Positions 1 to 5,602 of a stretch of DNA of 5,761 nt are shown here, one piece after another (within the stretch, counting starts at the first letter, position 1; each line of letters begins with the position of its first letter). The notes beneath the pieces were generated by a model, which was not told where the DNA came from, ran no database searches, and was given only the letters and a program-made list of their open reading frames with translations. Position numbers and translations under genes: made by a program. Source of the stretch: Phycisphaerae bacterium (GTDB lineage: Bacteria > Planctomycetota > Phycisphaerae > Phycisphaerales > SM1A02); the NCBI GenBank assembly GCA_002683195.1, contig NYSW01000034.1:1809-7569 (forward strand), in the 5' to 3' direction.

Positions 1-648
1 GACTTCAAGGCCGGCCCCACGAAGCTGGCGTGGCGATCCTGGACGAGTGGAACCCTCCCGTATCTCCTCAACGGCACCGCCAGCGTCGTTCTGATCCAGT
101 CGCCCTTCCTGGTGTTGGGCTGGATTCATGTCAGCGGGGAACAAGCGGCGATGTTCGCGGCTGCCGACCGGCTGGCACAACTGCTGGCGGTCGCGGGGCT
201 CGCGGGGAGCGCGATGTTCCTTCCCCTCCTGGCGGACGCGATCCGCTCCCGAAACCATGCCTACTGCCTGCGACTGATCCGGCGATGGTTCATCCTCGTC
301 GGAACCATCAATGTCATCGGGCTCTGCCTGCTCTGGCTTTTCGGGGATCACTTCCTCGGTCTGTATGGACTGCAGTACCGAGATGCCTATCCACTGCTTC
401 TGGTGACCGGCACATCGATCGGTTTCTCGATGACCGCGAGCGTGTTCCTGAGCGTCGTCCAATATGACGGTGGTGGACGCCTTGTGATCCGAACCTCGCT
501 GATCTGGTCCTTCATCGGAGTCTTGGCGATGATCGTCCTCGGTTCGAAATGGGAAGCCATGGGAGTCGCCATCGGCCAGGCCGGGGCCTTCATGGGGATG
601 TACCTGACCTTCACGATCATGGCCAGAGGCGTCCTCGGCAGGATGTGA
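1..648 (+). CDS. Polysaccharide (Wzx-like) flippase, C-terminal part, partial at left edge
   Basis: The frame is open from base 1 to a TGA at 646-648 and gives 215 residues; the true start lies outside the window. A GTG at 112 is internal, because the reading upstream of it continues the same protein. At least six hydrophobic segments are visible at about residues 19-43, 58-81, 96-115, 130-153, 164-181 and 186-208, with basic loops between them (RSR at 82-84, RLIRR at 91-95). The stretch around residues 33-60 (glutamine, then a hydrophobic run, then AAADRLAQLL) and the 'GLQYRDAYPLLLVTGT' stretch near 123-138 resemble the second half of MATE/MVF-type polysaccharide flippases, which move lipid-linked glycan units across the inner membrane. 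That family is an inference from topology and style; no catalytic motif exists to confirm it, and another multi-helix exporter is possible. The gene converges on the large minus-strand gene. Confidence 0.75.
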   Translation, partial: DFKAGPTKLAWRSWTSGTLPYLLNGTASVVLIQSPFLVLGWIHVSGEQAAMFAAADRLAQLLAVAGLAGSAMFLPLLADAIRSRNHAYCLRLIRRWFILVGTINVIGLCLLWLFGDHFLGLYGLQYRDAYPLLLVTGTSIGFSMTASVFLSVVQYDGGGRLVIRTSLIWSFIGVLAMIVLGSKWEAMGVAIGQAGAFMGMYLTFTIMARGVLGRM

Positions 649-991: not shown

Positions 992-3900
992 TCAGGGGCA
1001 GGCGCCCCAGGCCCCAATCAACAGACCGAGGTCGGCGGCATCGACGTTGCCGTCGGCATTGGCGTCCGCGGCGGCGTCGCTGGTGTCCCAGGCGCCAATG
1101 AGCAAGCCGAGATCGGCGGCGTCCACGTTGCCGTCGCCATTGATGTCACCGATGCAGACTTCGCATTCGTCCGGCACGCCGCTCTCGTCCGAGTCGGTGC
1201 AGTCCGCCGCGACGCACGAATCCTCATCGATGGTGGCCGGGCCCACGAGCTGGACAGGGAGGTTTTCGCAGACCGTGGTTCGGACGAGTTGAAGGGTTCC
1301 CGGGGTGGGATCGCCCTGCACGAAGATGCCGCCGCCCTCGGGGGTCGTGGCGGTGTTCCCGAACACCTGGCAGTCGAACATCGACAGGGTGCCACCGGCG
1401 TTCACCACGACGCCGCCGAGATCGGAGGTGCACGCGAAGACCAGGCTTTCACGGAATTCGACGTCGCCCTGAGCGACGACGAGGCCTGCGGCGGATCCTG
1501 ACTTTTCGCCGGAGATCATGATGTTCTCCAGAAGGACCGGGTCGCTTCCCGCCGCCGTGGAGATCCGGATGACCGGGTCCGCCGACCCATCGGGGCCGAT
1601 GAGGATCGTCGGATTCTCTGGGGTCCCCGTTCCAATGATGCTCAGGCCGGGGACGTCGACGTCCAACGCGGTGTAGTAGACGCCCGGTTCGAGCAGCAGG
1701 GTCTGGCCTGGACTGACGTAGGCGAGCGCGGCTTGGAAATCCGTGGTCGGGCCGATGTGGAAGACCGTGTCGGGATCGCAGCCGTCCGCGATGCCATCGC
1801 CGTCCGAGTCGAGCCAATCGAGAGAATCGGGACACGTGTCGTCGCAGTCAGGGACGCCGTCGAAGTCGGAGTCGAGGTCGGACACCCCGCAACCACAAAG
1901 GCCGGCGAAGAACTTGGAGGGATCGTCGGGGCAGTCGTCGAGGCAGTCCACCAACCCGTCCCCGTCGGTATCGACGTCTGGAACACCGCAGCCGCAGACA
2001 CCGGGTTCCGTCTTGAAGGCGTCGTCCGGGCAGAGATCGCATCGATCGGCGACTCCATTTCCATCCAGCAGGCAGCTGGACGAAAGGCAAGTGGAGCCGG
2101 CGGTGAACAGAGATGTGCCTGTGCAGTCCGGTACGTCAGTACAGTCCGGCGAGGCGAACACCTGTAGATTCGGATCGCCTGCGGGCGCCGTATTGCCGCA
2201 GATCACGGTGTCGGTCAGTGTGATGATTGCAAAAGTTTCGGTCGGAGTGACGGCGGAAATGGCACCTCCAGGAAGGCCCGGACTCCCGAGGAGGTTGCTG
2301 TTGATCTTGCAGTTCTCGATAGAAACGTAGCTGTTCCCGCCGATCTGGATGCCGCCCCCGCCAGTCGCCGCGGTGTTGGAATTGATGCTGCTGTCCGCCA
2401 AAGTCAGAAACCCGCCGGAATAGGAGATCGCGCCGCCGAGCAGGTCGGAGCTGTTCCCGACAAACTCGCAATTCTCGAACCGCGCCGAATCCGCGGGGAG
2501 CCCGGAGTGGTGGTACGCGCCGCCGCCGAACATCGCGTGGTTGTCGAGGAAGCGGCAGCCCGCGAAGGCCGTTGCCGCCAGAAGGTTGGACTCGATGGAG
2601 ACGGCGCCGCCATAGAAAGCCGAGTTGTCGACGAAGGTGACGTTCTTGAACGTTCCGTATGCGGCAGGAAGGACGATGGAGCCGCGCAGCCTGATGGCTC
2701 CGCCGTAACCGCCGGGTGCCTGGCCCCCTTCGATCTGAAGATTGCTGAGATTCAGGAATTGAGCGTTGAAGACCCGGGCCGGAGCAGCGTCGTCCCGCAT
2801 CTTGATGACTGCGCCGCCACCGGCACCGGAAATGGTCATGCTGTCGATGCTGATCGTATCGTCGATCAAGTACGTACCTTCGGGGATCGACACGCGTTCG
2901 TGCGATGCGTTACCCGTGAAGCTCTCGAGGAAGATCCCGAGATCGCCATCGGAGACAGGGTCGTAGGTGACCTCGACCGCATCGTCGCAGACGTCCGGGA
3001 TGCCGTCCTCGTCCACATCCGGACCGTCGTCCGGGAAGCCCGGGCACACGTCGAGGTGGTCGGGAACACCGTCATTGTCGCTGTCGTCGGGCACGCAGGC
3101 GCAGCCGCAGCCGGGGTCCACGAGATTCGGGGATCCGGGTGGGCACTCGCCGAGTGCTCTTTGGAGAAGTTCGAATGCGGAGTGACCATTCCCGGCGAAG
3201 AATGGCTGGTCAAGATAATCCCGCCATTCGGTGTCGTTGCGTGAGGGGCAGACGGATTGAAAGATAAACGGCTGTCGTTCCATGATTCCACCCGCGACCG
3301 CGGTGGTCATGTTGCCGAGGTACTCGAACTCCTCGCTCGTCAAGGGAAGCAGGACGCCGCTCATCGATTGGTGGAGATCGTCGTTCGCGGCGTCGACGAA
3401 CTGGACCTGGACGACCGTGACATCGATCGCCGTCCCGGCGTCAGCACCCGTGATGCCGTAGAGCGAGTTCTTTTTCAGGGCGGCCTGGCAGAAGAAGGTG
3501 TTGATGATGTAGTAATGGTCGCGATCGCGGTCTTCGGCGAACACGGAGTTGACGATGAATGCGACGTTGGGATCGGCATCGGGTGCCACGTTCAACGGAA
3601 ACGGATTGGATTCGTGGAAATTGAAGATGTGAGTGTCAGAGGTTGGGATGCCGCTGTTCGTATGCGGCTTCTCCCCGGTGAACCTGTCCGTGATTCCGAA
3701 CAGCTTGGCCGTGTTCTTCGGGAGGAAGACGTCCCCGCCGGACCGTTCGGCCACCACGATGTCCGTCGAGGCTTCGAAGATGACGAGTTGTGGATTGTTG
3801 CTTGCGTAGCCGCCGTAGTCGATGTCCTGGGCGAGTGCGTCGAGCGAGGCGGAAAGGCCCTCTGGACGGAGCCCGAGGTCGCGGATCATGTGGGCAACAC

Positions 3901-5305
3901 CGAGATCATCGACCCAGACACCGTCGACGCCGGAGAAGATCCTGCGTTCGGCCAGTTGCGGCATGTCGGTGAATCGCTCCAGGTCGGCATTCGGTGTGAC
4001 GGACAACTCGTTGCTGTCGTTGATCTCGAGGTTGATGTCCATCTTGTCCGCGGGGAAGATGTCCGTCATGATGAGGTCTCGGACTTCATTCCCGCACAGT
4101 TGACCGAGCCCCGCGATCTGGCAGAGGTTGCCGGCGTTCGCCCAGAGTGACTGCGTGAAGATGCCGTCCGACGCGAACGGGCCGACGGCGGAGGAAGAGA
4201 TGGCGGCCGCATCGATGACCGACAGGCTTCGGTAGTCCACGTCGGCGGGGATGACGGTGCTCGAGGCCGCCGGGACGCCCCGCCTCAATATTGAATAGTG
4301 GAACCGCCTGTCGCGGGCGAAGAACTGGGCATGGTCGTTGGCGGCGTCTTGCGCCGGGCTTCCGATGGTCAGTGGTTCGAAAGGGTGCGACAGCGCATCC
4401 TGGGCCACGTCCGATGCGAACCAATTCTCGAAATCGGCGGACCAGTTAAAGGTGATCGGAATCGAGCCGAAACTAGGTTCGAAGCTGGCTTCACCCACAT
4501 ACGGTTGGTCATAGGGGAAAAGGGGATAGGTCCACGTGAGCCAACCCTGGCTGTTCGGATCCATCCTGGTCCCCGGCAGGTAATTCCACCCCTGTGCACT
4601 GTTGACGAGGTCGTAGAGCATCGCCTCTGCCGCGCTGGAGCCGAGCCGATGCGCGCCTGCGACGTGGGCTGGCAGGCCCGCGGCCCAGATCAGATTGATG
4701 CCGTCCGCCCAGGCGTTCCGGTCGCCGGAACGCTGCACCGTGGCCGTGATGTTCGTACCCATTTCGAAAGGGCCGAACACCCATTCACGATTGACCCTTG
4801 CCCAGTCGTTGTCGAATGCTCGGAAACGAATGAGATCGGGAACGAACTCGTTCAGCAGATCGGAAACCTCGTCATACGGCCAGCTGAGATCCGGAAAGAT
4901 GACTTCCGGGAATCGGGTCATCTGGCCGAGGTAGCCGTCCGGGGAGTTCCAGCCGACTCGGTTCGCGTGGAGCAGGAGGGCGTTCTCGAACTCGGGCGAG
5001 TAGGCCAGCTGCGTCATGAGCCAGGTACCACCGGAGTTGGCGGTGATGGTGTGGGTGCGACTGAAGAGGGCCTCGAGATCGCCGCTCGTGGGGGCGTAGT
5101 CATCGGCCTTCGACGGAAATGAGGGCGAGAGCATGCCCCGGATCAGGCTCGTGTGAACCGAGTGCGCGTAGATCCCGCCGCCTGAGAAGGACATCAAGGT
5201 CTTGCGTTCCGTCGCTGATCCCTCGGCGATGGTGGCGTGTGACGACGACGCCGCGACGCCAACGATGATCGTGGCCGCTGCAAGGAATGACCGGGGGCTA
5301 TGCAT
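992..5305 (-). CDS. Secreted cPLA2/patatin-like phospholipase with beta-helix and dockerin modules
   Basis: This 1437-residue protein appears to be an exported acyl-ester hydrolase joined to binding modules. Order of parts: signal peptide (1-24); lipase domain (about 35-720) with an oxyanion-type SGGG at 41-44, nucleophile motif SGGTW (Ser91) and DGVWVDDLGV (Asp461), matching the Ser-Asp dyad of the cPLA2/patatin fold; Asp/Cys calcium-type block (732-776); beta-helix with GGA repeats (about 778-1050); second Asp/Cys block (1080-1177); second beta-helix (about 1180-1365); dockerin-like pair (1384-1434). The start at 5305 is preferred over an in-frame ATG at 5380 because GAGGAG lies six bases upstream and the signal peptide then begins at residue 1. 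Lipid hydrolysis is inferred from motifs; substrate is unknown. Loss of activity is possible, since the Arg that follows GGG in cPLA2 (SGGGFRA) is Tyr here (SGGGIYA). The role of dockerins in non-cellulosomal bacteria is not settled; surface attachment or protein assembly is plausible. The reading frame is intact throughout. Confidence 0.9.
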   Translation of the reverse strand: MHSPRSFLAAATIIVGVAASSSHATIAEGSATERKTLMSFSGGGIYAHSVHTSLIRGMLSPSFPSKADDYAPTSGDLEALFSRTHTITANSGGTWLMTQLAYSPEFENALLLHANRVGWNSPDGYLGQMTRFPEVIFPDLSWPYDEVSDLLNEFVPDLIRFRAFDNDWARVNREWVFGPFEMGTNITATVQRSGDRNAWADGINLIWAAGLPAHVAGAHRLGSSAAEAMLYDLVNSAQGWNYLPGTRMDPNSQGWLTWTYPLFPYDQPYVGEASFEPSFGSIPITFNWSADFENWFASDVAQDALSHPFEPLTIGSPAQDAANDHAQFFARDRRFHYSILRRGVPAASSTVIPADVDYRSLSVIDAAAISSSAVGPFASDGIFTQSLWANAGNLCQIAGLGQLCGNEVRDLIMTDIFPADKMDINLEINDSNELSVTPNADLERFTDMPQLAERRIFSGVDGVWVDDLGVAHMIRDLGLRPEGLSASLDALAQDIDYGGYASNNPQLVIFEASTDIVVAERSGGDVFLPKNTAKLFGITDRFTGEKPHTNSGIPTSDTHIFNFHESNPFPLNVAPDADPNVAFIVNSVFAEDRDRDHYYIINTFFCQAALKKNSLYGITGADAGTAIDVTVVQVQFVDAANDDLHQSMSGVLLPLTSEEFEYLGNMTTAVAGGIMERQPFIFQSVCPSRNDTEWRDYLDQPFFAGNGHSAFELLQRALGECPPGSPNLVDPGCGCACVPDDSDNDGVPDHLDVCPGFPDDGPDVDEDGIPDVCDDAVEVTYDPVSDGDLGIFLESFTGNASHERVSIPEGTYLIDDTISIDSMTISGAGGGAVIKMRDDAAPARVFNAQFLNLSNLQIEGGQAPGGYGGAIRLRGSIVLPAAYGTFKNVTFVDNSAFYGGAVSIESNLLAATAFAGCRFLDNHAMFGGGAYHHSGLPADSARFENCEFVGNSSDLLGGAISYSGGFLTLADSSINSNTAATGGGGIQIGGNSYVSIENCKINSNLLGSPGLPGGAISAVTPTETFAIITLTDTVICGNTAPAGDPNLQVFASPDCTDVPDCTGTSLFTAGSTCLSSSCLLDGNGVADRCDLCPDDAFKTEPGVCGCGVPDVDTDGDGLVDCLDDCPDDPSKFFAGLCGCGVSDLDSDFDGVPDCDDTCPDSLDWLDSDGDGIADGCDPDTVFHIGPTTDFQAALAYVSPGQTLLLEPGVYYTALDVDVPGLSIIGTGTPENPTILIGPDGSADPVIRISTAAGSDPVLLENIMISGEKSGSAAGLVVAQGDVEFRESLVFACTSDLGGVVVNAGGTLSMFDCQVFGNTATTPEGGGIFVQGDPTPGTLQLVRTTVCENLPVQLVGPATIDEDSCVAADCTDSDESGVPDECEVCIGDINGDGNVDAADLGLLIGAWDTSDAAADANADGNVDAADLGLLIGAWGACP
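1004..1156 (-). other. C-terminal dockerin-like module, two calcium loops
   Basis: Residues 1384-1434 hold two F-hand loops with the dockerin ligand spacing D-x-N-x-D-(6)-D: Asp1387, Asn1389, Asp1391, Asp1398 and Asp1414, Asn1416, Asp1418, Asp1425. All ligands are present in both. Each is followed by LGLLIGAW. Type I dockerins bind cohesins in cellulosomes; in planctomycetes, single C-terminal copies like this are frequent on secreted proteins and their partner is not established. It is the last module before the stop. Confidence 0.85.
1007..1135 (-). repeat. Pair of identical 16-residue dockerin repeats
   Basis: DGNVDAADLGLLIGAW occurs twice, at residues 1391-1406 (bases 1088-1135) and 1418-1433 (bases 1007-1054). 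The two 48-base segments differ at eight positions, all silent, so the protein repeat has been kept while the DNA drifted. Confidence 0.9.
1211..1768 (-). other. Second beta-helix region
   Basis: Residues about 1180-1365 repeat the design of the first beta-helix: an entry segment (DFQAALAYVSPGQTLLLEPG, then a Val/Ile-rich run with LSIIGTG), followed by short strands and turns such as VFGNTATTPEGGGIFVQG. It is shorter and less regular than the first region. The two probably arose by duplication of a beta-helix plus Asp/Cys-block unit, an inference from matching order and not from high identity. Confidence 0.65.
1775..2068 (-). repeat. Second Asp/Cys block with 33-residue CGCG repeats
   Basis: Residues 1080-1177. 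Two units of exactly 33 residues (1092-1124 and 1125-1157) share 19 identical positions, including CPDD, K, CGCGV, the DxDxDxDG loop and a closing DC. A third, shortened unit (1158-1177) keeps CPDS and LDSDGDGIADGCD but lacks the CGCG part. These are thrombospondin-type-3-like calcium loops with a disulfide-forming insert, acting as a linker between the two beta-helix regions. Confidence 0.8.
2156..2974 (-). other. First right-handed parallel beta-helix region
   Basis: Residues about 778-1050 start with a classic helix-capping style (VSIPEGTYLIDDTISI, then MTISGAGGGAVI) and continue as short beta strands with recurring N-x-x-F/I and GGA turns, as in pectate-lyase-like and polymorphic membrane protein folds. 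Such domains act in polysaccharide binding or cleavage or as adhesive stalks; no catalytic residues can be assigned, so a structural or binding role is favoured. Confidence 0.75.
2258..2704 (-). repeat. Pmp-like FxxN...GGA repeats in the beta-helix
   Basis: Successive units begin at residues 891 (FVDN...GGAV), 919 (FLDN...GGGA), 948 (FVGN...GGAI), 974 (INSN...GGGGI) and 1001 (INSN...GGAI), spaced 28, 29, 26 and 27 residues, with an extra GGAI at 868-871. This pairing of FxxN and GGA[I/V] is the signature of chlamydial polymorphic membrane protein repeats, also seen in other bacterial surface proteins. One more copy (VFGN...GGGI, residues 1314-1327) sits in the second beta-helix. Confidence 0.7.
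2978..3112 (-). other. First thrombospondin-type-3-like Asp/Cys block
   Basis: Residues 732-776 contain DSDNDGVPD and DVDEDGIPD loops with paired cysteines (CGCAC, DVC, DVC). Such DxDxDG loops bind calcium in thrombospondin type 3 repeats and often serve as stiff linkers in secreted bacterial proteins. Here the block separates the lipase domain from the first beta-helix. Confidence 0.75.
3146..5203 (-). other. cPLA2/patatin-like catalytic domain
   Basis: Residues about 35-720. 'LMSFSGGGIYAHS' (38-50) aligns with the glycine-rich oxyanion motif, 'TANSGGTWLMTQLAYSPEF' (88-106) with the nucleophile elbow (cPLA2 has GLSGSTW), and 'SGVDGVWVDDLGV' (458-470) with the strand carrying the catalytic Asp before the conserved Gly. 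The codons for Ser91 and Asp461 are at 5033-5035 and 3923-3925. The domain is large for a patatin (commonly under 400 residues) and closer in size to cPLA2 or fungal lysophospholipase catalytic domains. The end of the domain is approximate; residues 500-720 continue without low-complexity sequence. cPLA2-like domains are better known from eukaryotes than from bacteria, so the closest relatives are an open question. Confidence 0.7.
5234..5305 (-). other. Signal peptide of the phospholipase-like protein
   Basis: Residues 1-24 have a short basic start (MHSPR), a hydrophobic core (FLAAATIIVGVAA) and a small-residue cleavage site S-H-A before TIAEG. This indicates Sec export with probable signal peptidase I cleavage after Ala24. 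There is no lipobox cysteine, so a lipoprotein is unlikely. Confidence 0.85.
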
Positions 5306-5311
5306 CAACTT

Positions 5312-5317
5312 CTCCTC
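5312..5317 (-). promoter_or_regulatory. Ribosome binding site that sets the start of the large gene
   Basis: On the minus strand GAGGAG lies six bases before the ATG at 5303-5305. This is a strong Shine-Dalgarno match at good spacing and supports this start over the in-frame ATG at 5380, which would put 25 non-hydrophobic residues in front of the signal peptide. Confidence 0.8.
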
Positions 5318-5412: not shown

Positions 5413-5602
5413 GTCCAGAAGTCTGAAAGCTCGCCATTCCTTTGGGTGGCGCGGGGGCCGGCAGGAGTTCTTCCTTGATGACGTCGATCGTGCCGACTAC
5501 GAAGGCGTCGACGATTCCTGCGTCGGCGACATCGACCGCGACGGCAAGGTGTAGGACGGCGATCTCGGACTGCTTCTCGGACGCGGGGGGCCGTGCGACT
5601 GA
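5411..5602 (+). pseudogene. Degenerate dockerin-ended gene fragment with in-frame TAG
   Basis: In one frame, bases 5519-5599 read CVGDIDRDGKV, a TAG stop at 5552-5554, then DGDLGLLLGRGGPCD and a TGA at 5600-5602. This is a planctomycete-type dockerin end: ligand positions 1, 3, 5 and 12 of the calcium loop are all Asp and the register is kept across the stop, which occupies loop position 9. The usual GAWGPC ending has become GRGGPC. Only about 36 codons upstream (from an ATG at 5411) remain before the region upstream of the divergent phospholipase-like gene, and they show no recognisable domain, so the rest of the gene is missing. I infer a truncated, nonsense-containing gene remnant. A sequencing error at the TAG would restore the motif but would still leave a very short protein. 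Confidence 0.6.

Follow-up and report, generated by a model that had tools for sequence, protein, structure and literature searches.

The window analyzed here, a stretch of 5,761 nucleotides from contig NYSW01000034.1 of a Phycisphaerae bacterium, has one long gene, which runs on the minus strand and encodes a multidomain protein of 1437 amino acids (Table 1). We consider this protein to be most likely (probability ≈0.6) a secreted, surface-held lipid acyl hydrolase that combines a patatin/cPLA2 domain with calcium spacers, beta-helix arms and a dockerin end tag. The open reading frame (ORF) is a genuine gene, since its ATG at 5305 lies behind a GAGGAG sequence, its 1437 codons down to 992 contain no internal stop, and its G+C content by codon position (61/48/80%) is that of a real gene. 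The module list and coordinates of the first-pass annotation were right overall, except that the second beta-helix and both calcium blocks stayed below Pfam cut-offs. Its description of a secreted protein ending in a dockerin agrees with the secretion-type start and with a PF00404 match above cut-off.

A patatin/cPLA2-type fold with catalytic residues in place is supported for the N-terminal domain, because a structure model and transitive homology both point to it. The AF2 model was based on an alignment of 28 sequences, from which P0014 (swapped halves) and P0004 (a fragment) were omitted; a three-sequence version was set aside at a predicted local distance difference test (pLDDT) score of 28.7. 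In the model, the domain has a patatin-type α/β fold with a Ser nucleophile elbow, a Gly-rich oxyanion loop and the predicted catalytic Asp following a strand. This matches the cPLA2/patatin-like assignment made earlier, and the fold search gave nothing to refute a lipase fold at residues 35–720. Residues G42-G43-G44 and D461 are invariant in all 28 aligned sequences, as are the S, G, G and W of A-N-S91-G-G-T-W. The nucleophile elbow motif of patatins is G-x-S-G-G/S; in the window protein the first position is Ala, not Gly. Fold matches included patatin-17, cPLA2-IVD, cPLA2-IVA, iPLA2-beta, CapV/CapE and PlpD, as well as VipD and ExoU. Such matches from the patatin/group IV cPLA2 superfamily have only 8–14% identity to the window domain, which differs from them in being secreted, in carrying a beta-helix/dockerin tail and in having DGV in place of DGG. 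The top five matches in a BFVD fold search were an esterase, three patatin-type proteins and an NTE protein, none at E ≤ 0.001. PF01734 (Patatin) and PF01735 (PLA2_B) gave no match to the window domain at E ≤ 10, and hence none at the gathering cut-off, whereas the PF01734 cut-off was passed by the relatives P0014, P0020, L006 and L007. PDB-sequence matches from a three-domain profile search had E-values of 0.3 or worse and were judged to be due to chance.

Two proteins, P0002 and P0003, align with the window protein over its full length, with 35–36% identity across 98% of the catalytic domain. They have the same layout but are longer (1819–1825 amino acids), with more beta-helix and calcium-loop blocks; P0003 comes from the Phycisphaerae metagenome-assembled genome (MAG) SP135 (CMJ33_08445). 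A patatin-like family, P0005–P0030 (517–695 amino acids; named sources Flavobacteriaceae, Aureisphaera and Gilvibacter MAGs), shares the catalytic domain over most of its length, the C-terminal part included. Within this family, P0005–P0010 have a dockerin-like end, below cut-off in the four that were scanned, and no beta-helices. The protein searches scored only the top 7982, 7994 and 7995 word-sharing candidates, so that relatives may be missed. When viral contigs were scanned using the alignment of this family, none of the 281 pattern matches proved to be a relative. The patatin-like domain of P0014 has its two halves in the reverse order, which could stem from circular permutation, from fused tandem copies or from misassembly, and the final ≈35 residues of the 409-residue relative P0004 appear to be out of frame.

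The domain might have kept the patatin fold without acting as a lipase on outside lipids, either as a pseudo-enzyme or as a lipid binder within an adhesin. The branch leading to the clade of the window protein is long (4.27 changes per column), Val occupies the second Gly position after the Asp, and the domain is joined to adhesin-like beta-helices, all of which would fit such a role. However, the oxyanion GGG, the nucleophile Ser and the Asp are kept in three full-length members at 35–42% identity to the window domain, suggesting selection for catalysis, and we regard this alternative as unlikely. Within an established enzyme fold, the predicted lipase of the window forms a deep branch that has been sparsely sampled, and its scaffold is also of a known type; the tree is compatible with either one or two gains of the dockerin tail.

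In the tail, beta-helix 1 scanned as a fragment was above cut-off with both PF13229 (31.4 vs. 25.9 bits) and Chlam_PMP (24.8 vs. 20.6 bits), while the region of the probable beta-helix 2 reached 15.4 bits with PF13229 (E = 0.015). Five DxDxDGxxD loops are located at residues 741, 763, 1112, 1145 and 1166. With TSP_3 (PF02412), block 1 scored 21.2 and block 2 scored 11.5 bits against a cut-off of 25 bits; since the loops are present but the cut-off is not reached, the putative calcium blocks appear to merit the label “TSP3-like” only. A binary-toxin calcium-binding model also hit a calcium block (E = 0.061), which was judged a chance match of calcium loops.

The first-pass annotation also considered the combination of modules to be unusual. 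The tail, however, is common: searched in two Phycisphaerae-related genomes, G001 and G183, it gave 52 and 58 matches, respectively, and 93 of these 110 rows extend to the dockerin end by our own count. PF13229 alone had nine matches in G001 and 12 in G183. Five ORFs were picked for matching the tail search (a sixth frame, L047, of 448 amino acids, was dropped as apparently spurious). Four of them consist of beta-helix, calcium loops and dockerin, and the fifth of beta-helix and dockerin; the SGG[ST]W motif was absent from all five, three of which are truncated at the start. What sets the window protein apart is therefore the fusion of a patatin-like enzyme to a scaffold common among relatives. 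Of the papers searched, one contains both “patatin” and “dockerin”, and none contains both “right-handed beta helix” and “planctomycet”. The beta-helix/dockerin proteins L044 and L045 also have extended FG-GAP-like repeats, in which LGDLDGDGDLDAMVAN is one of the units.

The presence of similar tails on proteins without the lipase motif also speaks against use as a weapon, in which the protein would be a phospholipase delivered to prey, hosts or algae to attack their membranes. Secreted effectors do occur among patatin-type enzymes, with VipD and ExoU in the fold matches, and beta-helices can bind surfaces. However, the 5.8-kb window, in which the neighboring genes are incomplete, showed no delivery or immunity gene, and nothing in the analysis pointed specifically to an attack on prey, hosts or algae. 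We consider such a use to be very unlikely.

The C-terminal dockerin scored 36.8 bits with PF00404, compared to a cut-off of 22.9. The NCBIfam model dockerin_GC (NF041540) gave 30.8 bits (cut-off 29) for a 55-residue fragment, and the whole protein was not listed at E ≤ 1. The dockerin ends of P0002 and P0003 can be made out by alignment, but scans of the two full-length proteins listed no dockerin model. At E ≤ 0.001, PF00404 had 35 matches in G001 and 18 in G183. A stop codon lies within 12 residues of the end in 45 of these 53; three others end 13, 93 and 133 residues before the stop, and for the remaining five the examined stretch ends before any stop is reached.

Flanking cysteines, one immediately ahead of repeat 1 and the other behind repeat 2, were both present in 29 of the 53 dockerins and both missing in 17; five had only the C-terminal and two only the N-terminal one. 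In three of the five (L026, L055 and L066), a Cys is found within the first calcium loop instead. This rule was formed on 20 matches and fixed before the other 15 of G001 and the 18 of G183 were read; the pairing in the held-out set has a Fisher p of 1e-4, for proteins that are not independent. Because the N- and C-flanking cysteines occur together, Cys1384 and Cys1436 are predicted to form a disulfide clasp. Lipid attachment at the terminal Cys was considered and set aside, since the joint occurrence of the two cysteines fits a disulfide. The NF041540 GC-type dockerin proteins share this C-terminal domain, with a Cys at both ends, but the N-terminal parts of those scanned or read differ from that of the window protein. 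The term “GC-type dockerin” was not found in the papers searched.

The type I dockerin repeats are shared with cellulosomes and with the “planctosome”, and the first-pass annotation had suggested tethering in a dockerin-based complex, in which the dockerin would dock the lipase onto a scaffold. The nearest published model found is the peptide-degrading planctosome, proposed, in PMC6461901, alongside cohesin and dockerin modules described in freshwater Planctomycetes; it needs cohesins. The dockerin does pass PF00404, and 20 of 150 genomes of the class contain cohesins above cut-off. However, G001 and G183 have none above cut-off despite their 35 and 18 dockerin matches, and two weak cohesin matches in G001 look like other proteins. 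GC-type dockerin matches were found in 42 of the 150 genomes, with at least 10 matches in 14 of them (the scan scored at most 37 candidates per genome, and the cohesin and dockerin scans were taken to cover the same 150 genomes, as the handles agree). A cohesin above cut-off was present in one of these 14 dockerin-rich genomes, compared to 19 of the other 136; among the remaining 13, G097 had a sub-threshold match (22.7 vs. 24.1 bits), which if counted would give two of 14. This lack of enrichment argues against a cohesin partner for the GC-type dockerin, although divergent cohesins and incomplete genomes are possible, and tethering through a cohesin appears quite unlikely. GC-type dockerins appear hugely expanded in G004, G014, G033, G047 and G120, with 95–223 first-look candidates in each, of which at most 37 were scored.

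For a surface-held lipid hydrolase, the modules suggest the following sequence of events. The signal peptide, as read from the sequence, would export the protein, in which no lipobox-like pattern was matched at the start. The patatin/cPLA2-type domain, with its fold seen in silico, would then hydrolyze a lipid ester, using Ser91 as the nucleophile, Asp461 as its dyad partner and SGGG as the oxyanion hole. The DxDxDG blocks, when loaded with calcium, would form stiff spacers between the enzyme and the two beta-helix arms, which may grip a polymer or a cell surface. The disulfide-clasped GC-type dockerin would be an end tag, common in relatives, by which the protein is kept on the cell surface with no recognizable cohesin route, as is partly suggested by the NCBIfam name “GC-type dockerin domain-anchored protein”. 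The fatty acids set free from lipids on the cell surface or close to it would likely be used for feeding.

Several observations weigh against this interpretation. The catalytic domain has no direct match among the Pfam and NCBIfam enzyme models, and the Foldseek E-values are weak (best 0.06, none ≤0.001). The pLDDT is below 50 for 140 of the 706 modeled residues, with the block that bears Asp461 at 75. The Gly lost to Val after the Asp is present in 25 of the 28 sequences, the exceptions being the window protein and its two closest relatives. At the other end of the protein, the P0003 end fragment falls below both dockerin cut-offs (21.0 vs. 22.9 and 20.7 vs. 29 bits). Lipid hydrolysis, substrate and localization are all predicted. 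Finally, a lipobox-like stretch, seen in nine of the 20 proteins P0011–P0030, also occurs in two of the six short dockerin-tailed relatives, so that the two kinds of anchor, lipid and dockerin, do not strictly exclude each other; a dockerin that substitutes for the lipobox is weakly supported.

Table 1. Features of the window, with residue numbers of the encoded protein.
Feature	Position	Strand	Basis
Coding sequence, 1437 amino acids, secreted multidomain protein	992..5305	-	ORF, codon-position G+C, two relatives aligned full length
Shine-Dalgarno-like GAGGAG, 6 nt 5' of ATG	5312..5317	-	sequence
Putative signal peptide, residues 1-24, hydrophobic core, end SHA	5234..5305	-	by-eye sequence reading
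Patatin/cPLA2-like catalytic domain, residues 33-725	3131..5209	-	structure model, transitive homology
SGGG oxyanion-loop motif, residues 41-44	5174..5185	-	GGG in 28/28; strand/helix junction in model
Ser91, predicted nucleophile (ANSGGTW)	5033..5035	-	invariant 28/28; strand-Ser-helix elbow in model
Asp461, predicted catalytic-dyad partner (VDGVWVDD)	3923..3925	-	invariant 28/28; ends a strand in model
Calcium-loop (TSP3-like) block 1, residues 732-775	2981..3112	-	two DxDxDG loops; TSP_3 E 2.4e-4, below cut-off
Beta-helix 1, residues 778-1060	2126..2974	-	PF13229 and Chlam_PMP above cut-off as fragment
Calcium-loop (TSP3-like) block 2, residues 1075-1179	1769..2083	-	three DxDxDG loops; TSP_3 E 0.25, below cut-off
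Probable beta-helix 2, residues 1181-1365	1211..1765	-	PF13229 E 0.015; aligns to last helix-like region of P0002/P0003
C-terminal GC-type dockerin, residues 1383-1434, two half-repeats	1004..1159	-	PF00404 and NF041540
Cys1384, directly before repeat 1, predicted clasp partner of Cys1436	1154..1156	-	sequence; pairing in related genomes
Cys1436 in terminal WGACP, predicted clasp partner of Cys1384	998..1000	-	sequence; pairing in related genomes

Adjoining the start of the lipase gene, the plus strand at 5442–5602 has a stretch that reads like the final part of a dockerin half-repeat and contains a stop in the same frame; it is likely to be a remnant of another dockerin-tailed gene. At the opposite end of the window (1–648, plus strand) are the C-terminal 215 residues of a hydrophobic membrane protein, flippase-like by reading and with no Pfam match; it has matches in four of 298 genomes of the class at E ≤ 1e-5, with 25–29% identity.

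The window protein adds a deep branch of patatin-like hydrolases, missed by the Pfam models, and places it on a scaffold of the surface type in planctomycete-like bacteria; it thus provides a concrete candidate for lipid use by such cells. The question of the end tag is a more interesting lead than the lipase itself. Tentatively, and with considerable doubt, GC-type dockerins might serve in Phycisphaerae as a C-terminal surface tag that is clasped by a disulfide and works independently of cohesins, and the lipase clade would then be just one example among many unrelated enzymes and beta-helix proteins that the tag directs to the cell surface; such a sorting system would rival PEP-CTERM or MYXO-CTERM in reach, and its receptor would still have to be identified. 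Several related genomes contain dozens of dockerin-ended proteins with no cohesin detected, and what holds these proteins is a testable question.
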